A stretch of DNA of 64,000 nt from Rhodospirillales bacterium. Its GTDB lineage: Bacteria; Pseudomonadota; Alphaproteobacteria; Rhodospirillales; UBA2165. The notes under the pieces were generated by a model. It did not search any database. It worked only from the letters and a program-made list of their open reading frames with translations, and was not told the DNA's origin. The stretch lies in contig JADHRD010000001.1 in NCBI GenBank assembly GCA_016777585.1, forward strand, positions 34,056-98,055. Reading direction: 5' to 3'. Position 1 is the stretch's first letter. The number at the start of each line of letters is the position of its first letter. Of this stretch, positions 40,541-64,000 are shown piece after piece. The position numbers and the translations under genes were made by a program.

Positions 40541-40561
40541 TATAAAATTTCTTCTTAATTA

Positions 40562-41278: not shown

Positions 41279-41287
41279 TTTCGTTAT

Positions 41288-42067: not shown

Positions 42068-42109
42068 TTCTTTTAGTATAGACTTTTTTCTATATTATTT
42101 TTTAGAAAC

Positions 42110-44756: not shown

Positions 44757-44833
44757 TTTTTCTCATATTTAATAGTGATCGATTTTCTCTAATTTATATA
44801 TAACTATAGAAAAAATCGATCATTTATTACTAA

Positions 44834-45859
44834 TTACATTTTCAATTTAACCATATTTACTGCAGCAGATCCAATCGAATTGCGGTCAGTATCCGGGAGA
44901 GGTATAAGACCTTTATCGATTAAATACCCATCTTCACCCCAGGCTTTTTCATTAGTAAAGGCTGATACAAACTCTTTGATTCCTGGAATAACATTTACAT
45001 GCTGATGCTTAACATAAAAGAATAAAGAGCGAGAAACTCCATACTGCCCACCCGCAATTGCCTCAAAGGTTGGCAAATTTCCATCTACGCTAGCACCCTG
45101 AAGCTTATCAGAGTTTTGATCTAAAAAGCTGAAACCAAAGATGCCAAAAGCGTTCGGGTTTGCTTCTAATTTTTGAACAATTAAATTATCATTCTCACCA
45201 GCTTCAATAAAAGCACCGTCTTCACGCACTGAGTGAGCTATTTTCTTAAATGCTTTTTTATTTTTCTTACGAAGAACAGCCAAACTTGGGAACTTTTTTG
45301 CACCACCCTCAAGAGCTAGTTCACTAAATGCATCACGAGTTCCAGAAGTAGGTGGCGGCCCCAGTACTTCAATTTTCGTACTCGGTAAAGATTTGTCAAT
45401 ATCACTCCAAAGCTTATAAGGATTGTCTACCAACTTTCCATTTACCGGTACTTTATGCGCTAACGCTTGAAAAATATGTTTTTTAGTAATGGCCAACCGT
45501 TTTGATTTTTTTGAATTGGCTATAACAATGCCATCAAAGCCAATTTTCACTTCGGTAATTCCGATGCCTTTATCCATACATTTTTTGTACTCAGATGATT
45601 TAATACGACGAGAGGCATTCGTAATATCCGGGTGTCCTACACCAACACCAGCGCAAAAAAGCTTCATACCCCCGCCCGATCCTGTGCTCTCAACAACTGG
45701 GGTTTTAAAAGAAGTTGTTTTTCCAAAATTCTCAGCAACAGCGGTCGCAAACGGAAAGACTGTCGATGAACCAACTATTCTTATTTGATCTCGAGCTTCA
45801 GAAATAGAAGTAAATGATAATAAAAATAATGCTATTAACCCAAATAAATTTTTTGACAT
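44834..45859 (-). CDS. pstS: phosphate-binding protein PstS
   Basis: IRIVGSSTVFPFATAVAENFGK, ESTGSGGGMKLFCAGVGVGHPDITNASRRIKSSE, PPPTSGTRDAF. Confidence 0.96.
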   Translation of the reverse strand: MSKNLFGLIALFLLSFTSISEARDQIRIVGSSTVFPFATAVAENFGKTTSFKTPVVESTGSGGGMKLFCAGVGVGHPDITNASRRIKSSEYKKCMDKGIGITEVKIGFDGIVIANSKKSKRLAITKKHIFQALAHKVPVNGKLVDNPYKLWSDIDKSLPSTKIEVLGPPPTSGTRDAFSELALEGGAKKFPSLAVLRKKNKKAFKKIAHSVREDGAFIEAGENDNLIVQKLEANPNAFGIFGFSFLDQNSDKLQGASVDGNLPTFEAIAGGQYGVSRSLFFYVKHQHVNVIPGIKEFVSAFTNEKAWGEDGYLIDKGLIPLPDTDRNSIGSAAVNMVKLKM

Positions 45860-45933
45860 GATAAACTCTCACTAAAATTATAAAAAATTAAAATTGTGAA
45901 CGTAATTGATCACAAAATAACTATGAATATCAT

Positions 45934-45977
45934 TGGCGTTACCACTTTATGAAACTTTTGTTACAGTTTTATGACCG
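45934..45977 (-). promoter_or_regulatory. Candidate tandem Pho box upstream of pstS
   Basis: Minus strand, 11-bp phased units: CGGTCATAAAA CTGTAACAAAA GTTTCATAAAG TGGTAACGCCA; the first 18 bp match CTGTCATAAAACTGTCAC at 16/18. Confidence 0.7.
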
Positions 45978-46139
45978 TCAAAAAAAAAATTGTTTTTAAT
46001 TAAACAAAACGGTAATTTAATTATCGTTATACTTAAGGGCAATAATTAAGCGGGAATTTGCATTTAAACTTCGCAAATACTATTAAGTGATTGCATCTAG
46101 GCGATAAACTAAACATTTAAATTTTAGAGAATAATTACT

Positions 46140-47246
46140 GTGAAGAAAGTTTCAGACTTCATACAATTAAAAGGTATTGGTCAAAAAACCACTCTCCTTT
46201 TGGCGGAAAAGGGCATAAACACGCCCCGAAAACTATCGCGATTTAATGCCGCTCGTCTTAAGAATTTAACTGGCCTTAGCAAAAATAAATGTGAGGCACT
46301 AATTTTTAAGGCTAAAACTTTTATAAATCCAAACATACGTAAAAACATGGTTGAAGATGACTGGGTTAAATCCGAGTTGGAGGACTTCTTTGATGAAGAA
46401 CTTGAACTTGAAATGGATGATTACCGAATACCGTCAGGATTAAAAAATTTAATCGATAAAAACAGAAAAACGACACTAGACCGTCGAACATACTTTAAAA
46501 CATTATTACAACTGCAAATGGAGTTAGTGAAATTACAAGATTGGGTTGTAAAAAACAAATATAAATTAGTTGTAATTTTTGAAGGGCGAGATGCTGCTGG
46601 TAAAGGAGGCGTTATAAAAAGAATTACGCAACGTTTAGACCCTCGAATTTGCAAGGTTGTAGCCTTGAAAGCACCAAATGAGCGCGAAAAAACACAATGG
46701 TACTTTCAACGATTTGTAGAACACTTGCCAGCAGGAGGCGAGATTATTCTCTTTGATAGATCTTGGTATAATCGCGCTGGTGTGGAACGAGTGATGAAAT
46801 TTGCAACAAAAAATCAAGTAAATCAGTTCTTTCATGATGCACCTGAATTTGAGCGTATGTTGACAGGGTCTGGAATTAAGGTGGTTAAATACTGGTTTTC
46901 AATCACGGACCAAGAACAACAGTTGCGGTTTATGACACGAATTCACGATCCGATAAAACAGTGGAAATTAAGCGCTATGGATTTGCAATCTCGAGTCAGA
47001 TGGGAGGAATATACCAAAGCAAAAGAGGAGATGATTACGCAAACAAATATTCCAGAAGCTCCCTGGTTCATTGTAGAGGGAAATGATAAAAAGCGCGCAA
47101 GGTTAAATTGCATGGCTCACCTATTAAGCCTCATTCCATATCACGAAGTAAAAAGTAAACAGATAAATCTACCAAAACGAATATCTAATCCCGACTACGA
47201 GCGCGGAGTATTACCAGAAAATTTATACATTCCCGAAAAATATTAA
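46140..47246 (+). CDS. ppk2: polyphosphate kinase 2 family protein with N-terminal helix-hairpin-helix-like region
   Basis: FEGRDAAGKGGVIKRITQRLDPR, LPAGGEIILFDRSWYNRAGVERVM; N-term FIQLKGIGQKTTLLLAEKGINTPRKLSRFNAARLKNLTGLSKNKCEALIFKAK; GTG start. Confidence 0.93.
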   Translation: MKKVSDFIQLKGIGQKTTLLLAEKGINTPRKLSRFNAARLKNLTGLSKNKCEALIFKAKTFINPNIRKNMVEDDWVKSELEDFFDEELELEMDDYRIPSGLKNLIDKNRKTTLDRRTYFKTLLQLQMELVKLQDWVVKNKYKLVVIFEGRDAAGKGGVIKRITQRLDPRICKVVALKAPNEREKTQWYFQRFVEHLPAGGEIILFDRSWYNRAGVERVMKFATKNQVNQFFHDAPEFERMLTGSGIKVVKYWFSITDQEQQLRFMTRIHDPIKQWKLSAMDLQSRVRWEEYTKAKEEMITQTNIPEAPWFIVEGNDKKRARLNCMAHLLSLIPYHEVKSKQINLPKRISNPDYERGVLPENLYIPEKY

Positions 47247-47360
47247 ACTAGAAGCTATCCATTCAAATATTAACAAACTTCTTACTCTATATGCTTTGAA
47301 ATATTGAGATGTTGCTTATTTATATTCTTATAATTCTGTAATTTATTGTCAATAAATCAA

Positions 47361-48425
47361 CTAATGGCTATTATTTATTGGTAAATATACTATAAAAGTT
47401 GAGCCATAACCCTTTTTGCTCTCTATTTTTAATATTCCTCGATGTCTGACTAAAATATGTTTTACAATCGCTAGACCGAGACCTGTTCCACCTAATTCTC
47501 TAGATCGGCTCTTATCAATTCTGTAAAAGCGTTCTGTTAAACGAGGAATGTGTTCTGGAGCGATATCCTCACCTTTATTAAAAATCGAAATAGCTAAACC
47601 TTTCCCGCCAAGATCTGGAATATGTGTAACCATAAAAACTTCAATGATGACTGGAGAATTTTCTTCTCCATATTTTATGGCATTATCAATTAAATTTTGA
47701 AAAACTCTTATCAATTCATCTTGGTCACCAGTTATATTGGGTATTTCAGTCATCTGTTTCATATTAAAATCAATTAGGTTCTTTTTATAGCGGGCTAAAA
47801 ATAACTCTTGATTAGTATTTAAAAGTTGAATGATGTTTATTTGATCTTTTGGTTTTATACTCCCTCGACCCTCAAACTTTGCTAATGACAAAAGATCATC
47901 AACCATACGCTTCATCCGATGAGTCTCATCTTTCATTAACTTTAAAAATCTTAACCTGGCATTTTCATCATCCCTAGCAGGGCCGCTCAGAGTTTCAATG
48001 ATGCCAATTAAAGAAGAGAGCGGTGATTTTAACTCGTGACTTAAATTTGCTATAAAATCTTGGCGTACCTTGTCAGAAAAAATTTGAGATGTAATATCCA
48101 GAAAAACAATCATTATTGAAGCGTTAAAGAATTCAACAAGATTTGCGTTACTAATAATATTAGCTCGTAACACTCGATAAAATGGCACAGTCAAGGAGAT
48201 CTCAATTTCAGAATGTTTTTTTTCTTTTATTGCTAAACTAATTGCCTCAAGTAACTCAGGCACTCGGATAGATAAAGATAAATCACTTCCTAAAGCTCTA
48301 ATATTAAATATTTCAAATGCAGCGCTATTTGCATATTTCAATTCTCGTTTTTCAGTTAATATCATCACGGGAGAAGGAAAGACTTCAAGAAGTCGCATTT
48401 CAGGAGAATCATTGGTATTTGACAT
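47361..48425 (-). CDS. phoR: PhoR-like sensor histidine kinase without apparent TM segments
   Basis: DFIANLSHELKSPLSSLIGIIETLSG (H-box), N/G boxes DNAIKYG, GGTGLGLAIVKHIL; position next to the pst-pho block. Confidence 0.88.
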   Translation of the reverse strand: MSNTNDSPEMRLLEVFPSPVMILTEKRELKYANSAAFEIFNIRALGSDLSLSIRVPELLEAISLAIKEKKHSEIEISLTVPFYRVLRANIISNANLVEFFNASIMIVFLDITSQIFSDKVRQDFIANLSHELKSPLSSLIGIIETLSGPARDDENARLRFLKLMKDETHRMKRMVDDLLSLAKFEGRGSIKPKDQINIIQLLNTNQELFLARYKKNLIDFNMKQMTEIPNITGDQDELIRVFQNLIDNAIKYGEENSPVIIEVFMVTHIPDLGGKGLAISIFNKGEDIAPEHIPRLTERFYRIDKSRSRELGGTGLGLAIVKHILVRHRGILKIESKKGYGSTFIVYLPINNSH

Positions 48426-48557
48426 TTTAGAAATCTCACAAAAAATAAATTTTAAATAAGTTTATCATTGTAGAGTTATATGTCACCTACAAAACAAATG
48501 TCCTAAAAACGAGTGTAATATATAACCGGTTTATCGGTCATTTTTCACTGCAAAATT

Positions 48558-50816
48558 TTAAGTCCAACGGGGCGTATACTTTTGCACTGACTTGTATTGG
48601 TTTGGCATTTTCAAATCATAATTTAAGTTGTTAGCGGCATGACGTGTCCAGTAGGGATCAAAAAGATGCATTCTAGCAATCACGCAAATATCACCTCGCC
48701 CACTCGCTATTATTGAATTTGCATCGGCGTAGGATTGTATATTACCAACGGTCATAGTGGGTATATTAGCTTCCATACGTATTTGATCAGAAAAAGGAAG
48801 TTGAAATAATCTTCCATATTCTGGGTTTTCATCTGAAACAACCTGGCCGGAGGAAACATCTAGAATATCACAACCCAGTGATTTAAAAGTTTTGGCAGTA
48901 TACAATATATCATTCATCTCTACTCCCCCCTCGACCCAATCAGTTGCAGAAATTCTTACTGAGATCGGCTTTGTTTCGGGCCAGATTTGTCTTATCGCTT
49001 TAAATATTTCAACGGGGTATCGAAGGCGATTTTCAATTGATCCACCATATTCATCCGAACGTTTATTCGTTTTTGGAGATAGAAATGTATTGAGCAAATA
49101 GCCATGAGCACAATGAAGCTCAATCATATCAAAGCCAGCTTTTTCAGCTTTTAATGTTGCGGCAACGAACTGTTCACGAACCAAATCCATATCTTGTCGA
49201 TCCATTTCCTTAGGGACAGGATTATTTTTTGAATAAGGTATTGCTGAGGCTGCCATGGTTGGCCATGCACCTTCTTGTAAAGGTGCTTGCTCTCCACCCT
49301 CCCACTGTAGTTTAGTTGATGCCTTGCGACCAGCGTGACTCAATTGAATACCTATTTTTGCGTCTGAATGCTGATGCGTGTAGTCGACTATTCGCGCCCA
49401 CGCGGCGCAATGATTATCATTATACATGCCTGCACAGCCAGGGGTAATTCTACCCTCTTTTGAGACTGCTGTGCTCTCGGTCATAATAAGTCCAGCGCCA
49501 CCAGCTGCTCTACTTCCAAGGTGCACAAGATGCCAATCACCAACGAGGCCGTCATCAGCCGAATACATGCACATCGGAGATACAGCTATACGATTAGGTA
49601 TAACCATGTCTCTTAATTTAAATGGTGTAAAAATTGGAGGTACAGTCTCTTTCTCTTTAGGAATGCCAGTCTGTTCTGAAGCTTTATCCGCTACCCAAGT
49701 ATCAACCTGATTTAGTAGTTCCAAATCACGAAGGCCAAAATTCTGATGGTTAATTCTGAGACTACGTGTCAGCAATGAATAAGAGAATTGCATTGGCTCC
49801 ATTATGTCATGATAACGTTCCACATTCTCAAACCACTCCATACTTACTTGGGCCGCTCTTTGAAGGGCATTTACAATAGGCTCTCTTTTTTCTTGAAAAG
49901 CCGTTAGGGCTGCGTTCAAATCATGGTTATTCTCATTAACAGCCTCAAAAAGTGTAACCGCATCTTCCATAGCAAGCTTAGTTCCTGACCCAATTGAAAA
50001 GTGGGCGGTGTGAAGGGCATCGCCCATCAAAACAATGTTCTTATGAAAATAATTCTTATTTTTTACTCTTGGAAACGTTCTCCAAATTGAGTTATTTGTA
50101 ATGAGTGTATCGTTGCCGAGCTCTTTTTCGAAAACTCTGCCTATATAATCGACCGTATCATCTTCAGAAGCAGTTTCTAGACCAGAGCGTCGCCATGTAT
50201 CCTCTGTCGTTTCTACAATGAATGTCGATCTACCCGGCATATATTGGTAGCAATGTGCCCGCCAGAGCCCACCCTCATACTCGTTAAAATAAAAAGTAAA
50301 CGTATCGAATGCCTTAGTTGAACCAAGCCAAGTAAACTTATTGGGTCGCATGACGACATCAGCTCCAAATTCTTCAGAATATTTACCTCGAATCGAAGAG
50401 GCAATCCCATCACTTGCGAGTATTAAATCAGAATCTTGGTAATCACTTAAATCCTTTACGATAATATCGTGAATAATTGTAACACCTAATTCACGCGCCC
50501 GAGCTTCGAGTATCTGCAGCAATTTAAGACGTTGCATTCCGGCAAAACCATGGCCACGAGAGCGAATTTGATGCCCTTTATGAAACACATCGATATCGTC
50601 CCAATGTACGAAACTATTTGTAATTGCTTTGTATGATTCAATATCCGCATCTTTAAAATTTTCCATGGTCTCGTCCGAAAATACGACACCAAAACCAAAA
50701 GTCACATTATCAGGATTTTGCTCATAAACTGATATATCCCAACTAGGGTTTTCTTTCTTTGCTAAGATTGAAAAATATAAAGAGGCTGGCCCTCCACCAA
50801 TACACGAGATTTTCAT
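48558..50816 (-). CDS. Bifunctional FAD monooxygenase / Old Yellow Enzyme fusion, anthraniloyl-CoA monooxygenase or salicylyl-CoA 5-hydroxylase-like
   Basis: N-term IGGGPASLYFSILAKKENPSWDISVYEQNPDNVTFGFGVVFS, GDALHTAHFSIGSGTKLAMEDA; C-term OYE FTPFKLRDMVIPNRIAVSPMCMYSADDG, IGIQLSHAGRKAST, DMIELHCAHGYLLNTFLSPKTNKRSDEYGGS. Confidence 0.9.
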   Translation of the reverse strand: MKISCIGGGPASLYFSILAKKENPSWDISVYEQNPDNVTFGFGVVFSDETMENFKDADIESYKAITNSFVHWDDIDVFHKGHQIRSRGHGFAGMQRLKLLQILEARARELGVTIIHDIIVKDLSDYQDSDLILASDGIASSIRGKYSEEFGADVVMRPNKFTWLGSTKAFDTFTFYFNEYEGGLWRAHCYQYMPGRSTFIVETTEDTWRRSGLETASEDDTVDYIGRVFEKELGNDTLITNNSIWRTFPRVKNKNYFHKNIVLMGDALHTAHFSIGSGTKLAMEDAVTLFEAVNENNHDLNAALTAFQEKREPIVNALQRAAQVSMEWFENVERYHDIMEPMQFSYSLLTRSLRINHQNFGLRDLELLNQVDTWVADKASEQTGIPKEKETVPPIFTPFKLRDMVIPNRIAVSPMCMYSADDGLVGDWHLVHLGSRAAGGAGLIMTESTAVSKEGRITPGCAGMYNDNHCAAWARIVDYTHQHSDAKIGIQLSHAGRKASTKLQWEGGEQAPLQEGAWPTMAASAIPYSKNNPVPKEMDRQDMDLVREQFVAATLKAEKAGFDMIELHCAHGYLLNTFLSPKTNKRSDEYGGSIENRLRYPVEIFKAIRQIWPETKPISVRISATDWVEGGVEMNDILYTAKTFKSLGCDILDVSSGQVVSDENPEYGRLFQLPFSDQIRMEANIPTMTVGNIQSYADANSIIASGRGDICVIARMHLFDPYWTRHAANNLNYDLKMPNQYKSVQKYTPRWT

Positions 50817-50883
50817 TGAATATTTCCTATTAAACGTAACGTTTTTTATGTCGAAGCATTGCTCTTATCTAATTTGTATAATA

Positions 50884-50912
50884 GTTTAACCTTAAATTAT
50901 TTAAGGTTAAAC
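50884..50912. promoter_or_regulatory. 29-bp perfect palindrome, candidate operator in a divergent promoter region
   Basis: GTTTAACCTTAAA-TTA-TTTAAGGTTAAAC; between divergent starts at 50816 (-) and 50953 (+), beside TATAAT at 50877-50882. Confidence 0.65.
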
Positions 50913-50952
50913 AATCTCTTTTTTTAACGGAAGTCAACACCCAAAAACTCAC

Positions 50953-51360
50953 GTGAGGAACTTAGACATGAAAATATTGCAGCCGGAAAATTGGCCAAAG
51001 CCAAAAGGTTACAGCAACGGCGTCGCAGCAAAGGGAACTCATATTTTTCTTGCTGGAATGGTAGGGTGGAATGAACATGAGAAATTTGAGTCAATAGACT
51101 TTGTTGCACAAGCGCGGCAAGCGTTAAAAAATATTTTAACCGTGCTCAAGGAAGGGGGTGCCGACGCGTCACACATTACCAGAATGACTTGGTATTTTGT
51201 TGATATGGAAGAATATAGAGCGTCTCTTAAACAACTAGGGGCAGTTTATACAGAGGTATTAGGCAAAGTTTATCCCGCAATGACAGGTATACAAGTGGCT
51301 GGCCTAGTTGAGAAAGATGCCCGACTTGAAATTGAGGTCACCGCCATCATACCAGATTAA
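50953..51360 (+). CDS. RidA family (YjgF/YER057c/UK114) protein
   Basis: YSNGVAAKGTHIFLAGMVGW...FVAQARQALKNILTVLKEGGADASHITRMTWYFVDMEEYRA...YPAMTGIQVAGLVEKDARLEIEVTAI. Confidence 0.92.
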   Translation: MRNLDMKILQPENWPKPKGYSNGVAAKGTHIFLAGMVGWNEHEKFESIDFVAQARQALKNILTVLKEGGADASHITRMTWYFVDMEEYRASLKQLGAVYTEVLGKVYPAMTGIQVAGLVEKDARLEIEVTAIIPD

Positions 51361-51384
51361 ATTATCTATTAAAAAAACCTCGCC

Positions 51385-52278
51385 TTAACTCCAATATAAA
51401 TTCATCGGATTATCAACGAGGAGCTTGTATTGGAGCTCTACCGTAGTGGCAATCTTGGGAATGAAATCAACAAGATGTCCATCATCAGGTGTATGACTTT
51501 TTAAGTTTGGATGAGGCCAATCCGTTCCCCACAGAACACGATCCGAGAATGTATCGACAAGTTTTTTAGCGAACGGCACCACATCACTATACCCGTAAGG
51601 CCCCTCGTTTGATAGGCGATCAGGGCAGGTGACCTTTGTCCAGAAGTTTTCGTTTTCTGTCATAAGTTTCATAAAAAGTCCAAACTCGGGCCCGTCAGCC
51701 GACTTTGATACATCTGGACGGCCCATATGATCAATAACGACAGTTGTTGGGAGATTTGAAAAAAAATCGTATAACTCAGGAAGCTCTGGCGCTTCAAAAT
51801 AAATTACGATGTGCCAACCAAACGACTTGATGCGCTCCGCTATTTCAATAAGATCATCAGTTGGCAAGGTATCTACCAACCTCTTCACAAAATTAAAACG
51901 CACACCGCGCACACCCGCTTTATCGAGATCTTGAAGTTCATTATCGGTGACATCACGTTTGACCGTTGCCACCCCCCTCGCTGTATTGTTAGAATTATTC
52001 AGCGCATCAACTAACGCCCGATTATCAGCGCCATGGCAGGTTGCCTGAACAATGACATTCTTGGAAAAACCTATATGTTCCCTTAAGACCCAAAGTTGAT
52101 CTTTTGAAGCGTCGCAAGGCGTATATTTCCGGGTCGCTGCAAAAGGAAACACATCTCCTGGTCCAAAAACATGACAATGGGCATCCACGGCACCCTTTGG
52201 TGGAACGAATGTTGGCTTTGTTGGGCTGGGGTGCCAAACACGCCAATCAGGTGGGTCCATTGGAAAATCTTGACCCAT
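51385..52278 (-). CDS. Amidohydrolase family, 2-pyrone-4,6-dicarboxylate lactonase (LigI)-like
   Basis: GAVDAHCHVFGP, GVRGVRFNFVKRLV, VVIDHMGRPDVS, VLWGTDWPHPNLKSHTPDDG. Confidence 0.82.
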   Translation of the reverse strand: MGQDFPMDPPDWRVWHPSPTKPTFVPPKGAVDAHCHVFGPGDVFPFAATRKYTPCDASKDQLWVLREHIGFSKNVIVQATCHGADNRALVDALNNSNNTARGVATVKRDVTDNELQDLDKAGVRGVRFNFVKRLVDTLPTDDLIEIAERIKSFGWHIVIYFEAPELPELYDFFSNLPTTVVIDHMGRPDVSKSADGPEFGLFMKLMTENENFWTKVTCPDRLSNEGPYGYSDVVPFAKKLVDTFSDRVLWGTDWPHPNLKSHTPDDGHLVDFIPKIATTVELQYKLLVDNPMNLYWS

Positions 52279-52280
52279 GA

Positions 52281-53303
52281 CTAGAGCCCTCTCTTCTTAA
52301 GAAGGCTATCAAGCCTCGGATAAACCCTCCGTGCATTACCTTCATATATCTTAGCAAGATCAACATCGGAGAGATTTAGTGCATCCACGTATCGCTTCGT
52401 ATCATCAAAAAATTGACCGGTTTCGGGGTCAATTCCCCTTACCGCCCCGACCATTTCAGATCCGAACAAAATATTATCGATATCTATAACCTCAAATAAC
52501 AAATCGATGCCAGGCTGGTGATATACACAGGTATCAAAATAAACGTTTTGCATAACATGTCCATTGAGCGTTGGTCGACCAAGCATATCGGCAAGCCCAC
52601 GATAGCGTCCCCAATGATAGGGTACTGCACCGCCACCGTGGGGAATAATAAATCTAAGGTCCGGAAAATCTTTAAAAAGATCACCTTCAATAAATTGCAT
52701 AAACGCATTGGTGTCCGCTGCAATATAATAAGATCCGGTTGCATGAAAAGTTGGATTACAAGAGCCCGACACATGCACCATAGCGGGCACATTAAGCTCG
52801 ACCATCTTTTCATAAAATGGATACCAGTATTTATCCGTCAAAGATGGTGACGTCCAATGCCCGCCAGACGGATCTGGGTTTAAGTTGCACCCAACAAAAT
52901 CGAGTTCAGTGACGCATCTTTCAAGCTCCGCAATAGAGTTATCAAGAGAGCCACGAGGTGTTTGTGGTAATTGACAAACCCCAATGAAGTTATCAGGGAA
53001 AAGATCTGTTACCCGCCAAATAAGATCATTACAAGCAATTGACCAATCAAGAGAAGTTGACTCATCGCCAACATGGGGCTCCATCTTGGAAGCCCTGGGT
53101 GAGAAGATTGTAATATCAGCACCGCGTTCTCTTAGTAGTTTTAATTGATTGGCTTCAATACCCTCTCGAATTTCATCATCACTCATATTCGGTTTGGGGG
53201 GTTGAGGCAAAGCGGGGTTTTCAAGCCGCGCCTTTTGCGCCTCGCGATATTCGAGATGGGCCTTGGGAACAATGGTCTGATGACCATGACAATCAATAAT
53301 CAA
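52281..53303 (-). CDS. Amidohydrolase family, 4-oxalomesaconate hydratase (LigJ)-like
   Basis: MIIDCHGHQTIVPKAHLEYR, LKLLRERGADITIFSPRASKMEPHVGDE, GCNLNPDPSGGHWTSPSLTDKYWYPFYEKMVELNVPAMVHVSGS. Confidence 0.85.
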   Translation of the reverse strand: MIIDCHGHQTIVPKAHLEYREAQKARLENPALPQPPKPNMSDDEIREGIEANQLKLLRERGADITIFSPRASKMEPHVGDESTSLDWSIACNDLIWRVTDLFPDNFIGVCQLPQTPRGSLDNSIAELERCVTELDFVGCNLNPDPSGGHWTSPSLTDKYWYPFYEKMVELNVPAMVHVSGSCNPTFHATGSYYIAADTNAFMQFIEGDLFKDFPDLRFIIPHGGGAVPYHWGRYRGLADMLGRPTLNGHVMQNVYFDTCVYHQPGIDLLFEVIDIDNILFGSEMVGAVRGIDPETGQFFDDTKRYVDALNLSDVDLAKIYEGNARRVYPRLDSLLKKRGL

Positions 53304-53448
53304 TATAAGGTACTTTCACTCATATCTTAAAAAAATGTTAGTGGGCTCAGTTTAGCTCAAAATCACCCCGTTTCGAATACCCTATTTAAAAGGGAAAATA
53401 CAGAAAATTTTTTTTTATTGACTCCGAATTTTATCCTGCAACAAGTAT

Positions 53449-55056
53449 CTATGCACAAAACTCTGCTTTAGGGGACATTTCATCCAAGCTGAATCGTTCC
53501 CGCATCATCATCTCGAGCAACAGAGACTTGTCAGCATGAGCTACTGGATCATTCCACAAGTTATTGAGTTCTAGCGGATCATTGTGACGGTCATACAACT
53601 CACCAAAACAATGCTCCAGCCAATAGGTCAAACGCCATCGCTCTGTAACAAAGGTCCGAGTCTTTAGATATTGACCACAATTGGCATTAAAGGGAATCTC
53701 ATCTTCCTCAACTAGGATACCCAGCCGTGACAGATCGGTGCCCTTTGACACAGCATCCACAACATCAAACCCTTGAATGCCATGATACGGTGCGAGCCCC
53801 GCACGGCCCAGAATTGTTGAGGCAATATCAATCGTTCCGCTGAGTAATTCCGTCCTCTCACCCTTGTGATCCCCGTTTGGATCGGACCACAAGAAAGGAA
53901 CCCGAATTAACCCATCATTATGAAAACAGTGTTTTAGCATTAGACCATGGTCACCCATCAGGTCACCGTGATCAGAGGTGAAAATAACAACAGTTTGGTC
54001 GTCCAACCCAAGTTGCTTCAGTTTATTCAAAATACGGCCAATGGCGTCATCGACAAACGAAATCATGCCGTATGTTAAGGCAACACTCTCTCGAATTTCC
54101 CGCTCGTTAGCGACGTAAGCGGCGGCCTTGATCTTCCGTTCACCGTTTTTATATTGTCGCTCGAGTTCTCTTTGAAACGGCGGCGGGTCATTTTGCTCTT
54201 GACCGAAAGCGTCCGGAACCGGACAATCTGCCGGATTATACATCCCCCAGTATTTGCCAGGCGGAACAAAGGGGTGATGAGGATCGGGAAAACTTACTTG
54301 AATGAAGAAAGGATTATCATCATCTGAAGCCGAGTATTTTTCCAAATATTCTATTGTCGAAGATTCGACATAGGCGGTTGAATGCAATTCTTCAGGCACT
54401 GCTGTCCGCCAGGCCTGTGGCGCAATATAGTTGTTTCCCGGCAATTGATTCTCCGGCCCAACAAGACTTCCAAAATTCTCATACTGTTCATGAGCCCATC
54501 TGGTATAATGCCCACCGACATAATCGCCGTGGTTATTGGCAAACCGAACATATTCGAAACCATAATAGGGTAACATCACCTCTCGGTCTGGGTTTTGCTT
54601 AAACAAATCAACGCGCTCATTTTGATACTCTTTACCACGTCGTGTATTCAAATAGGCATCATTATAATCGTCATACAACGGCAGCCCCCCACCCACCGGA
54701 GGATAATTCCAATCTTCTACTTTCCAGTTGACCATGTTTTGAAGATGAGACTTACCGACAAGGGCTGTATGATATTCTGCCTGTTTCAAGACATTTACAA
54801 ACGTGTTTGAATTCCAAGGCAGAGATAATCCATTCGTCAGCACGCCATTGATGGACGGCATGCGGCCCGTTATTAGTGTGGCACGATTGGGCATGCAGAT
54901 CGGGTTGGAGACATAAAACTTGTCAAATGACAGACCATTAGTCGCGATCGAGTCAATATTTGGCGTACTGATGACAGAATTACCGTAACTGCCAATGTGA
55001 TCGGCCCGATGCTGATCAGTCATGATAAAGAGGAAATTTGGTTTACTTGAGGGCAC
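53449..55056 (-). CDS. Sulfatase family hydrolase (type I, CxPxR)
   Basis: NFLFIMTDQHRADHIGSYG; NPICMPNRATLITGRMPS (CxPxR formylglycine site); VIFTSDHGDLMGDHGLMLKHCFHNDGLIRVPFLW. Confidence 0.92.
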   Translation of the reverse strand: MPSSKPNFLFIMTDQHRADHIGSYGNSVISTPNIDSIATNGLSFDKFYVSNPICMPNRATLITGRMPSINGVLTNGLSLPWNSNTFVNVLKQAEYHTALVGKSHLQNMVNWKVEDWNYPPVGGGLPLYDDYNDAYLNTRRGKEYQNERVDLFKQNPDREVMLPYYGFEYVRFANNHGDYVGGHYTRWAHEQYENFGSLVGPENQLPGNNYIAPQAWRTAVPEELHSTAYVESSTIEYLEKYSASDDDNPFFIQVSFPDPHHPFVPPGKYWGMYNPADCPVPDAFGQEQNDPPPFQRELERQYKNGERKIKAAAYVANEREIRESVALTYGMISFVDDAIGRILNKLKQLGLDDQTVVIFTSDHGDLMGDHGLMLKHCFHNDGLIRVPFLWSDPNGDHKGERTELLSGTIDIASTILGRAGLAPYHGIQGFDVVDAVSKGTDLSRLGILVEEDEIPFNANCGQYLKTRTFVTERWRLTYWLEHCFGELYDRHNDPLELNNLWNDPVAHADKSLLLEMMMRERFSLDEMSPKAEFCA

Positions 55057-55166
55057 TACAACTCCAGACTAAAAGATTGTTCAGAGAGGCATCGCCCACC
55101 TATTCCGTTTGAAATCACGAAACTATTATATTCTTGCCGTTTAATCATATTTTATCTGTCGTAAGA

Positions 55167-56123
55167 TTAAAGAGCGTGGAGATGTGGGTCATCTAAAAAA
55201 TCTTCAGAAATATCTGGTCCCCACTGACTATTCAGTCCGACCGGCATATCCCACCTTTGTGCGGTATGTTTGCTGTTAACGACGTCACCATCGGTCCAAT
55301 GCTCGTGTATACGTCCCCATGGGTCTCGCCAATAATCATAAATTTGACTACCGAGCATATGCCTACCTATACCCCAAGCATGTTTGTAACCTTTCGATTT
55401 CAGATAGTTATGGCCAGTCTGTACATCATCAAAATCAGCCACTTCAAATGAGAGATGGTTGAATTCCGCATGATCAGATTGAATGCCAAGTAAAACATGG
55501 TGGTCTACGTAGGCTTGACCAGCATCGATATGGTTAAAAGTCATCATATCGACGCTTTCATCTTCTCCACTTTTGACGGTATCGGTAGTCGCTAGTCCGA
55601 GAGTTGACTGGTACCATTTATTGAATTTGACCAGATCTTTTGTTTTAACAACGACATGAGCACTTCTCTTGACGAGGCTTGATTGTCCAGGATTAAGAGA
55701 AACACGCTGGAGATCCGTGCGAAGGTTTTTATTTTTACCTGTATTGATCAGAACATCTCGAACCTCGAGATCATCTAAATTTTCCAACCCGTAGATTACT
55801 TCTATGATGCGACCGTCGGGATCCGTAAGTGTAACGCGACTACCGCCACCAGGTTCATCTATTTCATGAATTTCACTCGCACCTGGAACTTTAGAGACTT
55901 TCTCCAAATCATCATAGCTCCTTGCCCACCACGCCATGCCTATGTGGCTCGGCTCACCAAGTTCCGTGACATGAAGGTGATGGTCACCGTCTGTTCCACG
56001 CATATACAGAGCTTTCTTGGTACGGTCAGCTCTAACCATTCCAAAATCGACAAGAAACTCTTCCATCCTATCAAGGTCAGGTGCCCCCAAACGTCCATAG
56101 GCCAAATCAATAACTTTAATCAT
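55167..56123 (-). CDS. Vicinal oxygen chelate extradiol ring-cleavage dioxygenase-like
   Basis: Two VOC halves; DHHVLLGIQSDHAEFNHLSFEV; HAWGIGRHMLGSQIYDYWRDPWGRIHEHWTDGD (typical type I extradiol C-terminus). Confidence 0.85.
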   Translation of the reverse strand: MIKVIDLAYGRLGAPDLDRMEEFLVDFGMVRADRTKKALYMRGTDGDHHLHVTELGEPSHIGMAWWARSYDDLEKVSKVPGASEIHEIDEPGGGSRVTLTDPDGRIIEVIYGLENLDDLEVRDVLINTGKNKNLRTDLQRVSLNPGQSSLVKRSAHVVVKTKDLVKFNKWYQSTLGLATTDTVKSGEDESVDMMTFNHIDAGQAYVDHHVLLGIQSDHAEFNHLSFEVADFDDVQTGHNYLKSKGYKHAWGIGRHMLGSQIYDYWRDPWGRIHEHWTDGDVVNSKHTAQRWDMPVGLNSQWGPDISEDFLDDPHLHAL

Positions 56124-56174: not shown

Positions 56175-57332
56175 TTATATCTCATCTGGACCGGGTTCCA
56201 ATCCAAGTGCAACTCGGCCATAGGTCCCACCGCACCGATCCCAACCAATAGCAATATGGTTGCTAGCAGCTTTGACGTCTCGATACTGCCGCTGGAATGT
56301 TTCGTTCAAATACAAACCATGCGCACCAGACGCTTCGAACAATCGTTCCACGGCTCGTTTGGAAAGTGTGCATGCGTAGGCAGTATCTCTTCGCATCCTA
56401 GCGCGCTTCTCGACTGAAAGTTGACCAAATTCGCGCATTCCAGAAGATGCTTCTTCAGCAATGCGCAATAGAAGAACGCGAGCGAGATCAATCTCGACAG
56501 ACGACTCAGCGACGCGCAATTGCATACTTTCCCTTTCAGCTACTGCGACATTTCGCTGAGAGCGTGCCTTGGTAAATTCCAGATACTCTTCAAGCGCACC
56601 TTCGGCGGCTCCTACAACAACGGATGCCAAAACCGATGGCGGTACCGCCAAATAAGGTGTCTGATAAATCTTGTCTTCATGGCAGGTCGTTCCGGGTGCT
56701 GTTCCTTGGCGCTGATCGGTCCGCGTGATAATTCGATGGTGGGGAACTAACACATCTTTGACGGAAACATGACAGCTTCCTGAGCCGGTAATTCCCATAA
56801 CGTGCCAAGTGTCTTCAATATCCAAACATTCAGCCGGAACTAAACACAAATGATGAGTAAGCTCACCCGTCTTGGCGTGAGGCATCATAAAACCTAGTTC
56901 GGCCCAATTGCCATGAGCCACACCGCTAACAAACCCCCACCTGCCACTAACAATTACACCATCATCCGTTCTTTCTCCTTTACCGCTTGGAGCTACGCCG
57001 GAAACTACTAGTTGATCTGGATTGTTTCCCCAAACTTCCTGTTGCGCCTGTTCGGGATACATCGTGACGTCGAGCACATGAACCGAATACACAGCAGCAA
57101 CCCAGGCTTGAGAGGCATCTCCTTGAGCCAAAGCCATAATAACTGACAGCATGGTTTCCCAATCGGCTTGGTGGCCACCGTACTTTTTTGGCTGCAGGCT
57201 TTTTAATACACCAGAGTCAATATAATCTTGGGCCGTTTCCTTGGGCGTTTTTCTGGCTATTTCTGCATCACGAGCGCGCTCCCTCAAAAGAGGTTTAAGC
57301 GCTATCGCTCTATCAACAAGCTCCTGATTCAT
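56175..57332 (-). CDS. Acyl-CoA dehydrogenase-fold flavin-dependent monooxygenase (HsaA/pigment-production hydroxylase-like)
   Basis: GGHQADWETMLSVIMALAQGDASQAWVAAVYSVH, ERTDDGVIVSGRWGFVSGVAHGNWAELGFM, WHVMGITGSGSCHVSVKDVLVPHHR; internal MNQ start at 57332 preferred by its upstream GGAAGGTAGG. Confidence 0.82.
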   Translation of the reverse strand: MNQELVDRAIALKPLLRERARDAEIARKTPKETAQDYIDSGVLKSLQPKKYGGHQADWETMLSVIMALAQGDASQAWVAAVYSVHVLDVTMYPEQAQQEVWGNNPDQLVVSGVAPSGKGERTDDGVIVSGRWGFVSGVAHGNWAELGFMMPHAKTGELTHHLCLVPAECLDIEDTWHVMGITGSGSCHVSVKDVLVPHHRIITRTDQRQGTAPGTTCHEDKIYQTPYLAVPPSVLASVVVGAAEGALEEYLEFTKARSQRNVAVAERESMQLRVAESSVEIDLARVLLLRIAEEASSGMREFGQLSVEKRARMRRDTAYACTLSKRAVERLFEASGAHGLYLNETFQRQYRDVKAASNHIAIGWDRCGGTYGRVALGLEPGPDEI

Positions 57333-57337
57333 TTTAC

Positions 57338-57502
57338 CTACCTTCCGCACAGAAATGGAACAATTTTTTTTAGCACATAAGAAAAATATTTAAAATAATT
57401 TTTATGGGAACTCCGGTTCGGCCACAACGGTAAAAGGTTTTTAGCCAATAGGGTATCCCGATATTCCTGCGGCAGTTCTTCAAGAGTTCCTAAATTCGCC
57501 AT
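57338..57502 (-). pseudogene. Truncated gene remnant resembling the N-terminus of a gentisate 1,2-dioxygenase-type cupin protein
   Basis: Own translation: MANLGTLEELPQEYRDTLLAKNLLPLWPNRSSHKNYFKYFSYVLKKIVPFLCGR*; strong RBS TAGGAGGGG upstream; AT-rich tail after LLPLWPN. Absent from ORF track (54 aa). Confidence 0.5.
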
Positions 57503-57512
57503 ATGACCCCTC

Positions 57513-59099
57513 CTAAGCTCTCACATTTTTCAAAGCCTGCCGATCAACTTTTTGGGTGCCGGTCTTGGGAAGCTCGTTCATATATTGAATATGGCGGGGG
57601 TATTTATGCGGCAACAGCGATTGTTTGACAAAATTCTTAAGCTCGAGAGAGAACTCATCTCCAACTAGTATGGACGAGCTTGGCACTACATAGGCAACCA
57701 CTGTCATCCGCGCGTCGGCCATTTCCTCAGCTAGAACCGCACACTCTTTCACTTCAGGATGTTCGGCGAGGGCCATTTCTATTTCATGCGGCCATAACCA
57801 TTGCCCGGAAACTTTAACGAGATCATCCGCACGGCCTTTAAAAAAGTAAAAACCGTCAGCATCTCGAATAAACCGGTCACCTGTCCACAACCATTCGCCA
57901 CGCATTGTTTCACTGGTCTTATCTGGACGGTTCCAATAAGTCTCAGCACCTGAAATCCCGCTAACTTCCATGATACCTTCCTCACCGTCAGGTACTTCCT
58001 CGCCAGACGCATCAAGCAATCGAATGGCGTAACCCGGCACGCGCTTTCCTGCGGAACCCAGTTTTTTCTCTGCTTCAGTATTGGAGAGATAAATATGGAG
58101 CATTTCGGTAGAGCCCAGACCTTCGACAATTTCTTGCCCAAATCTATCTCGCCAACTATCAAAAATATTCTTCGAAAGCACTTCGGCGGCGGAGAGGCAT
58201 AGCCGAACAGAAGTTAGATCAGCTGATTGAGAACCCTCATGATTGATCAAGGTATTAAATGCTGTTGGTAATCCGAACAAAACAGTTGGATGATGTTTGG
58301 CTATCTGGTCAAAGATGCGTCCGGGTTCAGGACGCCCCGATGCCAGAACAGCGCTTGCCCCGGCAGCCAACGGAAACATAACCGAATTACCAAACCCATA
58401 AGCGAAAAAAATCTTTGGAATTGAATAACAAACATCTCCTGGCGCCAGTTTAATAATGTTTTGCGCGAAAGCCGTATTTGCATAGAGCAAATCCTCGTGA
58501 CGATGGACGACACCTTTGGGCCGACCAGTCGTACCAGAGGAATACATCCAAAGTGACATATCGTTCTTTGAAGTTGGAACCTCCTCAAGATCGACAGAGG
58601 CATTTTCGACAACCTCCCAAGCTATTCTGGTTCCAGTCGCCTCACCGACCACCACGACTTTGGTGCAATTCGTGTCGACAAGTAGCTCTTCGCTGAAAAT
58701 ATCCTGCATATCTTCAGAAACGATCGCAGCTTTAGCCTCACTATCCGTCAACATATAGCGAATGGCATCTTCCGTTGAGAGAGTATTCGTTAAGATTGGA
58801 ACACACCCCACTTTCATGGATCCCATGATCGCTGCGGGATAAGCGGGCTCATCATCCAGGAAGAGCATAATCCGGTCACTAGGTTTGACTCCAAATTGCA
58901 GAAGCATGTTGCCAATCTGGTTTGCTTCGCCAGCAAGTTGGTCATAGGTTCGATTGCCCGCATCGGAATAGACGGCTACTTTGGAACCTTCCCTTTGCGA
59001 TATATTGTCAAACAACAATCGAGAAGCATTATAAATATTAGGACATGAATAGGCGATCTCATCGGCCATTTTTTGTTTAATAGACACTTGGCTCATCAC
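57513..59099 (-). CDS. Benzoate-CoA ligase family (aryl-CoA ligase)
   Basis: MYSSGTTGRPKGVVHRHEDLLYANTAFAQNIIKLAPGDVCYSIPKIFFAYGFGNSVMFPLAAGASAVL; GEWLWTGDRFIRDADGFYFFKGRADDLVKVSGQWLWPHEIE. Confidence 0.92.
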   Translation of the reverse strand: MMSQVSIKQKMADEIAYSCPNIYNASRLLFDNISQREGSKVAVYSDAGNRTYDQLAGEANQIGNMLLQFGVKPSDRIMLFLDDEPAYPAAIMGSMKVGCVPILTNTLSTEDAIRYMLTDSEAKAAIVSEDMQDIFSEELLVDTNCTKVVVVGEATGTRIAWEVVENASVDLEEVPTSKNDMSLWMYSSGTTGRPKGVVHRHEDLLYANTAFAQNIIKLAPGDVCYSIPKIFFAYGFGNSVMFPLAAGASAVLASGRPEPGRIFDQIAKHHPTVLFGLPTAFNTLINHEGSQSADLTSVRLCLSAAEVLSKNIFDSWRDRFGQEIVEGLGSTEMLHIYLSNTEAEKKLGSAGKRVPGYAIRLLDASGEEVPDGEEGIMEVSGISGAETYWNRPDKTSETMRGEWLWTGDRFIRDADGFYFFKGRADDLVKVSGQWLWPHEIEMALAEHPEVKECAVLAEEMADARMTVVAYVVPSSSILVGDEFSLELKNFVKQSLLPHKYPRHIQYMNELPKTGTQKVDRQALKNVRA

Positions 59100-60235
59100 A
59101 AAGCAGCTTCCTTTTCTCGTAGGTTTAACTGCTCGACAAATCGAGGAGATATTTTTGCGACGTCCTCAATTGAAAGCCGACCCGATCTCAACGCGTAACT
59201 CCTCGCCAACTCCCACGGGTCCAACGCCATATGTTCACCAAAGTTCTCGTACCAAAGTGCAGAAGAAAGAGCGGCTGCGGTGAGTTTTGTGAGCACCGGC
59301 TGTCGCTTCTCTTGGTAGGCCGGCAATGCTTTTGTTACGTCAAAATCGTTTTCCTTCAAAGCGTCGACAAGAGCAATGACATCCTCCATCGCGAGGCGCG
59401 TTCCAGACCCAATTGAATAGTGCGCGGTGTGCAAAGCATCGCCAACCAGCACACGGTTTTTATGATACCAACGGGCATTCTCCAAAACTGGAAAACGCCG
59501 CCATATCGAGTTATTATTTATAAGTGCGTGTCCTTCAAATTCCTCGACAAATATGCCTTCACAGATCTTACGATACTCTTCTTCCAGCATGTTCTCAAAG
59601 CCGGCATTCCGAAAAGCAACTTCATCACATTCGACGAGAAATGTACTTTGATTTGGTGAAAACCGATAATGATGGACATTAAAAAATCCGTATTCAGTTT
59701 CTTTGAAGGTCTGCGTTAGTGTTTCAAAAGGTTTCGTTGTCCCGTACCAGCAGAACCGGTTGTGTAGAAAATAGGTTTTCTCACCATAAGACTGAGGCGC
59801 TTCAGCACGTACCACGGAATTCAAACCATCTGCCGCAATGACCAAATCGGCGCCGTCAAAGACTGACAGAGAATCGATGCGCATATCGTATATAGGTTTT
59901 ACACCTACTTTTGCTGCTTGCTGTTGAAACAACTTAAGCATTTCCAGACGACCAATCGCGCTGAAACCAATGCCATCAACCTTCACTTTCTCACCCTTAT
60001 GGGAGATCGTTATGCCGTCCCAGGTCTCCATTTTAGGTTCAATCAGATCAGCCGTTTCTGGGTCTCCTTCCCTCAGAAATTCAAGGGCGCGCTTTGAAAA
60101 GACGACCCCAAACCCCCAGGTTGCATCCGCGGGAGACTGATCAAAAATCTGAATATCTGCGTCAGGCTTAGCTCGCTTTATTAGCGTTGCCGCGTAGAGC
60201 CCTGCAGGTCCGGCCCCAAGAATTCCGATACGCAT
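59096..60235 (-). CDS. FAD-dependent monooxygenase, salicylyl-CoA/anthraniloyl-CoA hydroxylase-like (standalone)
   Basis: ILGAGPAGLYAATLIKRAKPDADIQIFDQSPADATWGFGVVFSKRALEFL; GDALHTAHYSIGSGTRLAMEDV; similar to the N-terminal half of the 48558-50816 product. Confidence 0.88.
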   Translation of the reverse strand: MRIGILGAGPAGLYAATLIKRAKPDADIQIFDQSPADATWGFGVVFSKRALEFLREGDPETADLIEPKMETWDGITISHKGEKVKVDGIGFSAIGRLEMLKLFQQQAAKVGVKPIYDMRIDSLSVFDGADLVIAADGLNSVVRAEAPQSYGEKTYFLHNRFCWYGTTKPFETLTQTFKETEYGFFNVHHYRFSPNQSTFLVECDEVAFRNAGFENMLEEEYRKICEGIFVEEFEGHALINNNSIWRRFPVLENARWYHKNRVLVGDALHTAHYSIGSGTRLAMEDVIALVDALKENDFDVTKALPAYQEKRQPVLTKLTAAALSSALWYENFGEHMALDPWELARSYALRSGRLSIEDVAKISPRFVEQLNLREKEAAL

Positions 60236-60472
60236 TCCGCATCCCCTTCGTTCACTTTAACCACAAGACAATCATATAATAATTTATACAATATACAATC
60301 TATTATTTTTTAGATAAGTAATAAAAATAGATGACCCACCAGCACGATAAATCCGACACCCAATAAAATAGGCGCCAACCAATCTCTATGGTCGACGCCT
60401 TAAATATTATTATTGTCCTTTAATCTGATTTAATTCAGGTACAGTTCGATCCTAATCAGCAAGTTATTAAAT

Positions 60473-60961
60473 CTATTTTTGCCATGGCCGCTCATAATCT
60501 TTGGCCATATGCCCAGACCCATCTTGATCTCCTTCCGAGAACAACCAACCGTACCCCCCTTTTGGATTTGAGAGAATCTCCCAGGCATTTCCATCTTTAT
60601 CCCAAAAGTAGAAACTGTAGGTACCATGCTGCTTAATGGGTTTCGTAATATTATCGAGCCCCCATTTCTCAGCCTGTTCTTCACACAAACGATGACACTC
60701 ATCAACCTCTTCGTCGGTATCCACATCAAGGCCATTATGAAACAATAGTCCCATTTTCGTTTTTTTGCTTCCGCGCTTAACAGCGGCGTAGGTATGCGTG
60801 CCTCCCAAACGAATCATCAAGGAAATCGGACTGGTCCGAACGACCTCCAACCCTAAAAATTCTTCATAAAACTTTCGACTTGCATCAACGTCGTCAACTT
60901 CAAGCGTACCGTGAGAAAGGAACTTGAGCTTCAATACAGGCTCTACATTTTTGTCCGGCAT
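60473..60961 (-). CDS. VOC family (glyoxalase-like) protein, single domain
   Basis: LSHGTLEVDDVDASRKFYEEFLGLEVVRTS; YSFYFWDKDGNAWEILSNPKGGY. Confidence 0.87.
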   Translation of the reverse strand: MPDKNVEPVLKLKFLSHGTLEVDDVDASRKFYEEFLGLEVVRTSPISLMIRLGGTHTYAAVKRGSKKTKMGLLFHNGLDVDTDEEVDECHRLCEEQAEKWGLDNITKPIKQHGTYSFYFWDKDGNAWEILSNPKGGYGWLFSEGDQDGSGHMAKDYERPWQK

Positions 60962-61158
60962 TTCCGGTACTCCCTAAATATTTCTATTACCTAAATCAAA
61001 AACTGGCTATTTTTTTCTTTATAAAAAAGTATATTATATTATATATCATCTATTGTACAATATATTTTTAATTTCGTTTTTCACAAACGACAACTTCCAA
61101 ATATCATTCAACAACGGCTACCTTAAGAAAAAGCCATCAAAATACTCAAACATAAAAG

Positions 61159-62004
61159 TTGTTATCCGGACCTTATCAGTATAGAAATATTTGTATGATT
61201 CCAGCAAAGAGTTCTAGTTCAAATAAAAATGAGCCTGCAGGTAAAGATGTGCCTACAGGTAAACGTCGTGGCATTAATTCGGTTGAAATCAGTATAAAAA
61301 TTCTGGATGCCATTACAGAATTAGAGCAACCAGCCTCGTTGACCGATATATCCAATCAAGTAGGAATGGGCGTTAGCCAAACCCATCGCTATGTCTCAAG
61401 CTTTCTAAATTGCGGCATCCTTCGACAAGAACCCAATTCAACTCTCTATAAATTGGGCCCTAAGGCACTTCAAATCGGGCTTTCAGCGATTGCTGCCAAT
61501 GATCCAATTTCTCTGACGGATATTATGGCGCGTCAATTTTCCATCGAAAATCGCGCGACAATCTTAATGACTGTTTGGGGAAATAACGGCCCGACAATTA
61601 TTCGTTGGTATCATGGCCAGCCACCAATCTATACGATCCTGACAATAGGTTCTGTGTTGCCGGTAACCCAATCGGCAACGGGCCGGATGTTTATGGCACA
61701 CCTGCCAGAGAGTTTTGTCGAACCCATGCTAAAAAATGAAGGCTGGAAAACACCGCTTGGGCGAAACCCAAAGCTTATCAAGGGTAAAGAAAAAATCTTA
61801 AAAGACGGTTTTGCCGACGTCGATGGCACGGTTGTTCCAGGCCTTCGCGCCTATGCCACCCCAGTTTTTGGTGCAGACAACCAATTAATCGCTGTACTTT
61901 CAGTCGTTGGCTCTGATCAGATCGATCGGTCAATGGATAAAAAATGGATAGCGGAACTCAAAACCCAGTGCAAAGAGTTATCAGCCGAACTGGGCGCGAC
62001 CTAG
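61159..62004 (+). CDS. IclR family transcriptional regulator
   Basis: SVEISIKILDAITELEQPASLTDISNQVGMGVSQTHRYVSSFLNCGIL (wHTH), PVTQSATGRMFMAHLP, GLRAYATPVFGADNQLIAVLSVVG; start could be 61195. Confidence 0.93.
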   Translation: MLSGPYQYRNICMIPAKSSSSNKNEPAGKDVPTGKRRGINSVEISIKILDAITELEQPASLTDISNQVGMGVSQTHRYVSSFLNCGILRQEPNSTLYKLGPKALQIGLSAIAANDPISLTDIMARQFSIENRATILMTVWGNNGPTIIRWYHGQPPIYTILTIGSVLPVTQSATGRMFMAHLPESFVEPMLKNEGWKTPLGRNPKLIKGKEKILKDGFADVDGTVVPGLRAYATPVFGADNQLIAVLSVVGSDQIDRSMDKKWIAELKTQCKELSAELGAT

Positions 62005-62021
62005 AATCCTCTATATCCCTT

Positions 62022-63338
62022 TTATAAAAGAGCAAGGGAGATTGATGGGAATACTATGATGAGCCCAAGAACAATTATCATTGTCAGCATAAACGGAAAT
62101 GCACCGGTAAAAATTTCCGTCAAAGATATTCTGCTATCATCTAAATTTGCTTGAATGACGAAACATGCCATTCCGAGCGGTGGTGTTAACAAACCGACCT
62201 CAATGGCAAGAACCGTAACAATCCCGAACCACACCAAGTCAATTTGATTACCTTCCATTAAAGGTAAAACAAAAGGCAACACGATTAACATAATGGATAC
62301 CGAGTCCAAAAAGGTACCCAAGATTAGCAGGACGAATACGTAACCCAGCAAGATCACAAAATAATTTAGGCCCGCCTCACTGATCATCGCACTGACATCT
62401 CCAGGTATGCCCGTCATTGTAAGCATCGAAGCGTAAAGTTGGGCTGATATAAGCAAAAAACAAATAGAGGATGTGACATAGCCTGTCTCCATTGCCACAC
62501 CCCAAAGTTTCTTAATCGTCAATTTTTTGCGGACAAATCCGATTATAAGCGCACCTAGCGTTCCAACCCCGCCGGCTTCAGTAGGCGTAAACAAACCGCC
62601 ATATATCCCGCCTAAAACAATCATCATTAATATCACGATTGGGAAAAGAAGTTTCCATGTATCATTCTCTTCAACCAAATCTATATCTTGCGCAAAGTCG
62701 CCCTCCGATTGCTTTACAAACTTAGGTGTAAAGACAGACATAAAATAAATCGCGACGACAAAGGCCAAAGCGAGAAGCACACCAGGTATAATCCCGGCAA
62801 TAAATAAATCTCCAACAGATGTTTCTGTTAATACGCCATAAATAATGAGAAGAAGGCTGGGTGGAATGAGCATACCGAGAACGGAGGACCCGGCCACGAC
62901 ACCCACGGCGAATTTAGGGGTGTAGCTATGTCGGATCATTTCAGGAACCGCAACCTTAGTGAATATTGATGCGGAGGCGATCGAAGTTCCTGTTACAGCA
63001 GCGAAAACGGCATTCGCACCGACCGTCGAAACCGCTAATCCGCCTTTAAGACGCGAAAATAATCGGTTTGCAGCCGTGAAAGTATCTTTGCCTATATCAC
63101 CTGCGGCTATTAGCAGACCCATCATGACAAAGAGGGGAATAACTCCGAAAATATAAAAGGAGATTTTTTCCGCGGCCGCGAGCGCCATAAGCTTTCCGGC
63201 AATTTCAAAATCTTTCATAAGCCAGACAGATAAAAAGGATACCGTTATCATGGCAAAAGCAATGTGCATACCGGCCTGGATCAGCACAAGCAAAGAGATG
63301 ATGGCTAGGATGCCAATTTCGAAATTTCCCAGTTCCAT
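62022..63338 (-). CDS. TRAP transporter large permease (DctM family)
   Basis: GVIPLFVMMGLLIAAGDIGKDTF, SSVLGMLIPPSLLLIIYGVLTETSVGDLFIAGIIPGVLL, LTPPLGMACFVI. Confidence 0.95.
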   Translation of the reverse strand: MELGNFEIGILAIISLLVLIQAGMHIAFAMITVSFLSVWLMKDFEIAGKLMALAAAEKISFYIFGVIPLFVMMGLLIAAGDIGKDTFTAANRLFSRLKGGLAVSTVGANAVFAAVTGTSIASASIFTKVAVPEMIRHSYTPKFAVGVVAGSSVLGMLIPPSLLLIIYGVLTETSVGDLFIAGIIPGVLLALAFVVAIYFMSVFTPKFVKQSEGDFAQDIDLVEENDTWKLLFPIVILMMIVLGGIYGGLFTPTEAGGVGTLGALIIGFVRKKLTIKKLWGVAMETGYVTSSICFLLISAQLYASMLTMTGIPGDVSAMISEAGLNYFVILLGYVFVLLILGTFLDSVSIMLIVLPFVLPLMEGNQIDLVWFGIVTVLAIEVGLLTPPLGMACFVIQANLDDSRISLTEIFTGAFPFMLTMIIVLGLIIVFPSISLALL

Positions 63339-63340
63339 GG

Positions 63341-63865
63341 CTATTTCGAAGAACCGCTCCCTGTCTTTTTTAAGTTAAAATAAAGGAACAACAAAATCTG
63401 CACGAATAGCGCCGCACAACCGATCAAAATAAGAAGTTTTATGGGCCATACAGGAATGGTCATTACACCCGGTGTACCTCGATAATAACCTCTTTCAAGC
63501 GATTGCTGGAAAAGCGGGATACTGAAATAGAAAATCAGACCAACAATCACCAATCCATTTAAATCGAATAGGAGCGTCAAAAATCTAGCGAAAACAGGCT
63601 TTCGAGTAGCCAGAGCATTGAACAATACATCCGACCGAATAAATCGTTTATGCCTCAGTGTGTCCGCGGCTTGCAACCAAACTATGGCGACGATCGCCAG
63701 CCCGACAAATTCAGCCACGCCAGGTAGTGGCTGGTTGAAAAACCCGCGCCCAAATACATCAACATTTACGACGACGACCATCGCAAGAATGCCAACAGCT
63801 CCAAGCGCATTAAGAATAAAAGTAATAGAGCCGACCGTAACATTGATCTTGTCTTTAACACTCAT
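63341..63865 (-). CDS. TRAP transporter small permease (DctQ family)
   Basis: VVVNVDVFGRGFFNQPLPGVAEFVGLAIVAIVWLQAADTLRHKRFIRSDVL. Confidence 0.92.
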   Translation of the reverse strand: MSVKDKINVTVGSITFILNALGAVGILAMVVVVNVDVFGRGFFNQPLPGVAEFVGLAIVAIVWLQAADTLRHKRFIRSDVLFNALATRKPVFARFLTLLFDLNGLVIVGLIFYFSIPLFQQSLERGYYRGTPGVMTIPVWPIKLLILIGCAALFVQILLFLYFNLKKTGSGSSK

Positions 63866-63918
63866 AACCGCCTCTATTACCTTTCACAGGGAGTTAGGAT
63901 ATATTCCTTATCTATAAT

Positions 63919-64000
63919 TTATTCTTTGTCCCAATTGCGGATTGGTTTTGCACCGGCTTTACGGACACCGTTCATATAGCTGGACAGAATCTTATTCCCG
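63919..64000 (-). CDS. C-terminal end of a gene upstream of DctQ, probably the TRAP substrate-binding protein (partial)
   Basis: Own translation of the window edge: ...GNKILSSYMNGVRKAGAKPIRNWDKE*; identity inferred from position only. Confidence 0.5.
   Translation of the reverse strand, partial: GNKILSSYMNGVRKAGAKPIRNWDKE

Follow-up and report, generated by a model that had tools for sequence, protein, structure and literature searches.

The presence of a 54-codon open reading frame, starting like a gentisate dioxygenase (GDO), between a CoA-ligase gene and an HsaA-like monooxygenase gene raised the question of what this frame is and how it came to lie there. An earlier note had proposed that an internal deletion removed a ring-cleavage gene from a single operon and that gentisate cleavage could have given way to the extradiol route encoded downstream. 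Coordinates are positions of the 64-kb window, i.e., the whole stretch of DNA that was analyzed, and the segment bearing the insert described below reaches the end of the contig at position 64000.

Results

The truncated gentisate-dioxygenase-like gene (GDO') occupies positions 57338 to 57502 of the minus strand and encodes a 54-aa product with the translation MANLGTLEELPQEYRDTLLAKNLLPLWPNRSSHKNYFKYFSYVLKKIVPFLCGR*. The frame was present exactly as the earlier note had described it, with a strong ribosome-binding site, TAGGAGGGG, immediately preceding the ATG. Together with its spacer, this site spans 57503 to 57515 (minus strand) and overlaps the stop codon of the ligase gene, and the GDO' start lies 10 bp past that stop codon (57513). 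Codons 1 to 30 (57413 to 57502, minus strand) are dioxygenase derived, while codons 31 to 54 form an out-of-family tail in which no coherent match to anything was detected. The last ∼10 codons correspond to the 5' flank of the HsaA-like gene, aligning to a relative of the same genus (G131) from position 57369, and the GDO' stop codon is 5 nt ahead of the likely ATG of the HsaA-like gene (57332). In about 11% of shuffles, an AT-rich tail like that of GDO' stayed open by chance alone.

The identity of residues 1 to 30 was examined with a six-frame search of 297 genomes of the order, in which the best match exhibited 67% identity (E value of 6.8e-8). Matches at an E value of <0.005 were detected in 12 of the 297 genomes, all inside residues 1 to 37 and all representing the start of open frames of 356 to 462 residues. 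These frames were mutually homologous, GDO-like two-cupin proteins and were 56% to 69% identical to a protein of genome G110, the nearest full-length relative of GDO'; this protein scored 272 bits against TIGR02272, below the curated threshold for this family (equivalog cutoff, 442.1 bits), and also matched the solved gentisate dioxygenases 2d40, 4fag, and 2phd. With an HMM of these 12 sequences, GDO' was the sole significant match among 1,793 open reading frames of the window (E = 1.2e-8; model positions 1 to 30). This model is mildly circular because its members were retrieved with GDO' as the query; the remaining ∼315 residues of the members identify the GDO family independently. GDO' carries the conserved N terminus of a GDO subgroup, LGTLEELPxxYRxxLxxxNLxPLWPS, and in the alignment LGTLEELPQEYRDTLLAKNLLPLWPN continues in relatives as (S)LRxxLP..., whereas in GDO' an unrelated AT-rich tail is found instead. 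The GDO' sequence gave no match to TIGR02272, and neither the 54-aa nor a 29-aa peptide gave a meaningful match in Pfam, NCBIfam, or PDB sequence searches, the peptide being too short for these libraries to detect. Overall, these searches indicated that the similarity of residues 1 to 30 to GDO-like N termini is far beyond chance, and the resemblance proposed in the earlier note was borne out.

The remaining ∼315 codons of the broken dioxygenase gene were not found in the assembly. An insertion of the HsaA block into a dioxygenase gene was considered and rejected, as no C-terminal GDO piece was found in the assembly. The two other GDO-like genes of this genome, on contigs C66 and C75, were also considered as the source or the missing part of GDO', and neither was close. 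The gene on C66 (G000:C66:1-751, L001) is 94% identical to the full-length GDO of G131 and is orthologous across the family; it could be missed by completeness-based annotation because it is cut by the contig end.

Comparison of the ligase-to-HsaA junction with related genomes, as the earlier note had suggested, located the break. The HsaA-like flavin monooxygenase gene (56175 to 57350, minus strand) is the first gene of a resident operon that also encodes an extradiol-type (VOC) dioxygenase (55167 to 56123, minus strand), and the two products have 94% and 98% protein identity, respectively, to those of G131. In G131 this operon (94% to 98% protein identity) adjoins a tRNA-Met gene without CehG- or CehH-like genes or a GDO remnant, and a six-frame search of G131 gave no match to the 54-aa frame. 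DNA comparison showed that our contig (C35) is collinear with G131 C8:110423-201826 up to window position 57369 and that contig C92 is collinear with G131 C8:58816-110316 from just beyond tRNA-Met(CAT), next to rpoD. Only ∼107 bp separate the tRNA-Met and HsaA-like genes in G131, compared to at least 6.9 kb at the same site in this genome (at least 278 bp plus 6,631 bp, with the middle unassembled). Since the similarity to dioxygenases extends only to 57413 and the collinear backbone starts at 57369, with 44 bp of AT-rich sequence between them (junction zone, 57369 to 57413), the truncation lies at the junction itself. The sequence downstream of tRNA-Met differed in nearly every family genome examined (L119, L118, L120, L121, and L126); this genome and G189 share a short stretch downstream of tRNA-Met(CAT) at this otherwise variable site.

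The 6,631-bp segment from 57370 to 64000 contains, in addition to GDO', a gene of the benzoate-CoA ligase family resembling CehG (salicylyl-CoA ligase) directly upstream of GDO' (57513 to 59099, minus strand) and an FAD monooxygenase gene resembling CehH (salicylyl-CoA 5-hydroxylase) that overlaps the ligase start (59096 to 60235, minus strand). At higher coordinates are genes for a VOC-family protein (60473 to 60961, minus strand), a divergent IclR-type regulator (61159 to 62004, plus strand), and, at the end of the contig-terminal insert, the large and small permease subunits of what appears from its sequence to be a TRAP transporter (62022 to 63865, minus strand). None of the other family genomes searched contained the ligase (E ≤ 1e-120).

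Two further observations were made on the resident side. A 752-aa protein encoded near the HsaA/extradiol operon (48558 to 50816) has an N-terminal half resembling the FAD hydroxylase of the insert and a C-terminal half that looks, by sequence, like an old-yellow-enzyme domain of the salicylyl-CoA 5-hydroxylase/oxidoreductase type. In addition, a block of ∼18 kb (window ∼38000 to 56000, from the pst/phoU/phoB region through the catabolic operon) is 93% to 98% identical to G131, compared to mostly 83% to 90% for the flanking backbone, and appears to have been recently exchanged.

The genomic setting of CehH-CehG pairs was examined in 80 genome loci, found by a contig scan with an alignment as the query (the ligase alone as the query gave no relatives). 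Gene order was identical in all 80. A GDO gene was present downstream on the same strand in 61, including 8 in which it lies within 300 bp, and 6 further loci were too short to judge; the loci do not amount to 80 independent cases because Bradyrhizobium is heavily sampled. Homologues of the IclR-type gene are divergent in many of these loci too. Several of the plasmid loci annotated with the names cehG, cehH, and cehI have genes for a cupin dioxygenase and a fumarylacetoacetate hydrolase nearby. A dioxygenase slot after the ligase thus fits both the downstream GDO genes and the annotated plasmid loci. A mismatch is that the GDOs usually encoded beside CehH-CehG in relatives represent a different subgroup from that of the GDO' N terminus. 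Moreover, most of the nearest relatives of this N terminus occur in other families, and most do not adjoin a CehG ligase.

Discussion

We consider it likely that GDO' is the 5' remnant of a GDO-type gene of an acquired cluster, cut short where a lineage-specific insertion ends. The third gene of this cluster, after the CehH-like hydroxylase and CehG-like ligase genes, would have been a GDO-type gene of ∼345 codons, and the encoded route would lead from salicylate through salicylyl-CoA to gentisyl-CoA. The cluster would lie in a lineage-specific segment flanked by the tRNA-Met gene on one side and by the resident HsaA/extradiol operon on the other, with a right-hand junction produced by illegitimate recombination or by a (later) deletion across the boundary. 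Formation of this junction most likely took the remaining ∼315 codons, leaving 30 and joining the HsaA operon to the inserted genes. Absence of the ligase from the rest of the family suggested a gain in this genome rather than a loss in G131. A truncated GDO-type N terminus in a catabolic operon was confirmed, but its origin by a mere deletion inside a single operon was not, as the truncation lies where the 57370-64000 segment meets the G131-collinear backbone.

A chimeric assembly is possible because the assembly is fragmented, the segment reaches the contig end, and the insert is not spanned. In that case, the contig end from 57370 to 64000 would come from another organism or strain, joined to C35 at the AT-rich sequence, and there would be no real truncated gene. 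The absence of the segment from the close relative G131 is compatible with such an artifact, as is the termination of C92 278 bp past the point where synteny breaks. The tetranucleotide match of the segment to the backbone (0.733) was the lowest of the windows tested, just under that of the lowest backbone window (0.738), but was inside the range of genus members (0.70 to 0.79) and far from that of outside organisms (0.31 to 0.53). Moreover, the break falls exactly between the tRNA-Met and HsaA-like genes, where the flank varies among the family genomes as it would at a genuinely variable site, and C92 also has non-G131 sequence on its side of the site. We therefore regard a chimera as rather unlikely.

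Two alternatives give GDO' a role. In one, a real and recent fusion would have made GDO' a translated leader through which an acquired IclR-type regulator that responds to salicylate controls the resident HsaA/extradiol operon, an outcome that we regard as improbable. In the other, the 54-aa frame would be kept as a small protein or leader peptide that links the HsaA-like gene translationally to the cluster upstream; its strong ribosome-binding site, the proximity of its stop codon to the HsaA ATG, and the fact that the frame is still open are in keeping with this proposal. However, full-length conservation in relatives, which the earlier note had named as the mark of a genuine small protein, was not observed, as the six-frame search detected no 54-aa homologue in the 297 genomes of the order. 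All significant homologues were N termini of full-length dioxygenases, and the tail has no homologue, while chance alone would give an open frame of this length in about 11% of shuffles. We regard a retained small protein as improbable too. The 54-aa peptide most likely has no catalytic function, and the most that its ribosome-binding site and stop position could confer is a role as a leader that couples translation to HsaA.

The idea that the extradiol route took over from gentisate cleavage, as marked by an internal deletion of the GDO gene, has a negligible chance of being correct: a broken ring-cleavage gene does lie upstream of an extradiol dioxygenase gene, but the extradiol operon belongs to the resident backbone and G131 has it while lacking the insert, no action of HsaA/extradiol enzymes on gentisate is known, and the second, family-wide GDO survives on C66, so that gentisate cleavage has probably been retained. 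This corrects the metabolic interpretation, as there is no sign that one mode of cleavage was swapped for the other. Otherwise, GDO' is a rather commonplace remnant of a gene cut short at a variable site in the chromosome, in which a broken gene end too short for the usual annotation marks an insertion boundary.

With respect to known systems, a genomic island integrated at a tRNA gene encodes an integrase, and its far junction carries the tRNA 3' end as a direct repeat. In the window, no stretch of ≥12 bp matched the 3' end of the tRNA gene, and no integrase was seen in the sequenced part of the incompletely assembled insert; these results do not support its designation as an integrative island. 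With the two-cupin family of gentisate and salicylate 1,2-dioxygenases (TIGR02272; PDB 2d40, 4fag, and 2phd), GDO' shares the N terminus from the first residue. In contrast to these proteins of ∼345 aa, it retains 30 residues and lacks both cupin domains and all metal-binding histidines, and hence it cannot be an active enzyme. The closest parallel in gene content is the CehGH salicylyl-CoA pathway, which is cited in PMC11335346 and PMC13215587. This locus differs from a CehGH cluster in its truncated dioxygenase gene and in that no gene for a CehI-type gentisyl-CoA thioesterase was recognized among the listed open reading frames of the 6.6 kb seen (57370 to 64000, where the contig ends). It shares with such a cluster the tandem arrangement of a CehH-like hydroxylase gene followed by a CehG-like ligase gene, the divergent IclR-type regulator, and the downstream dioxygenase slot.
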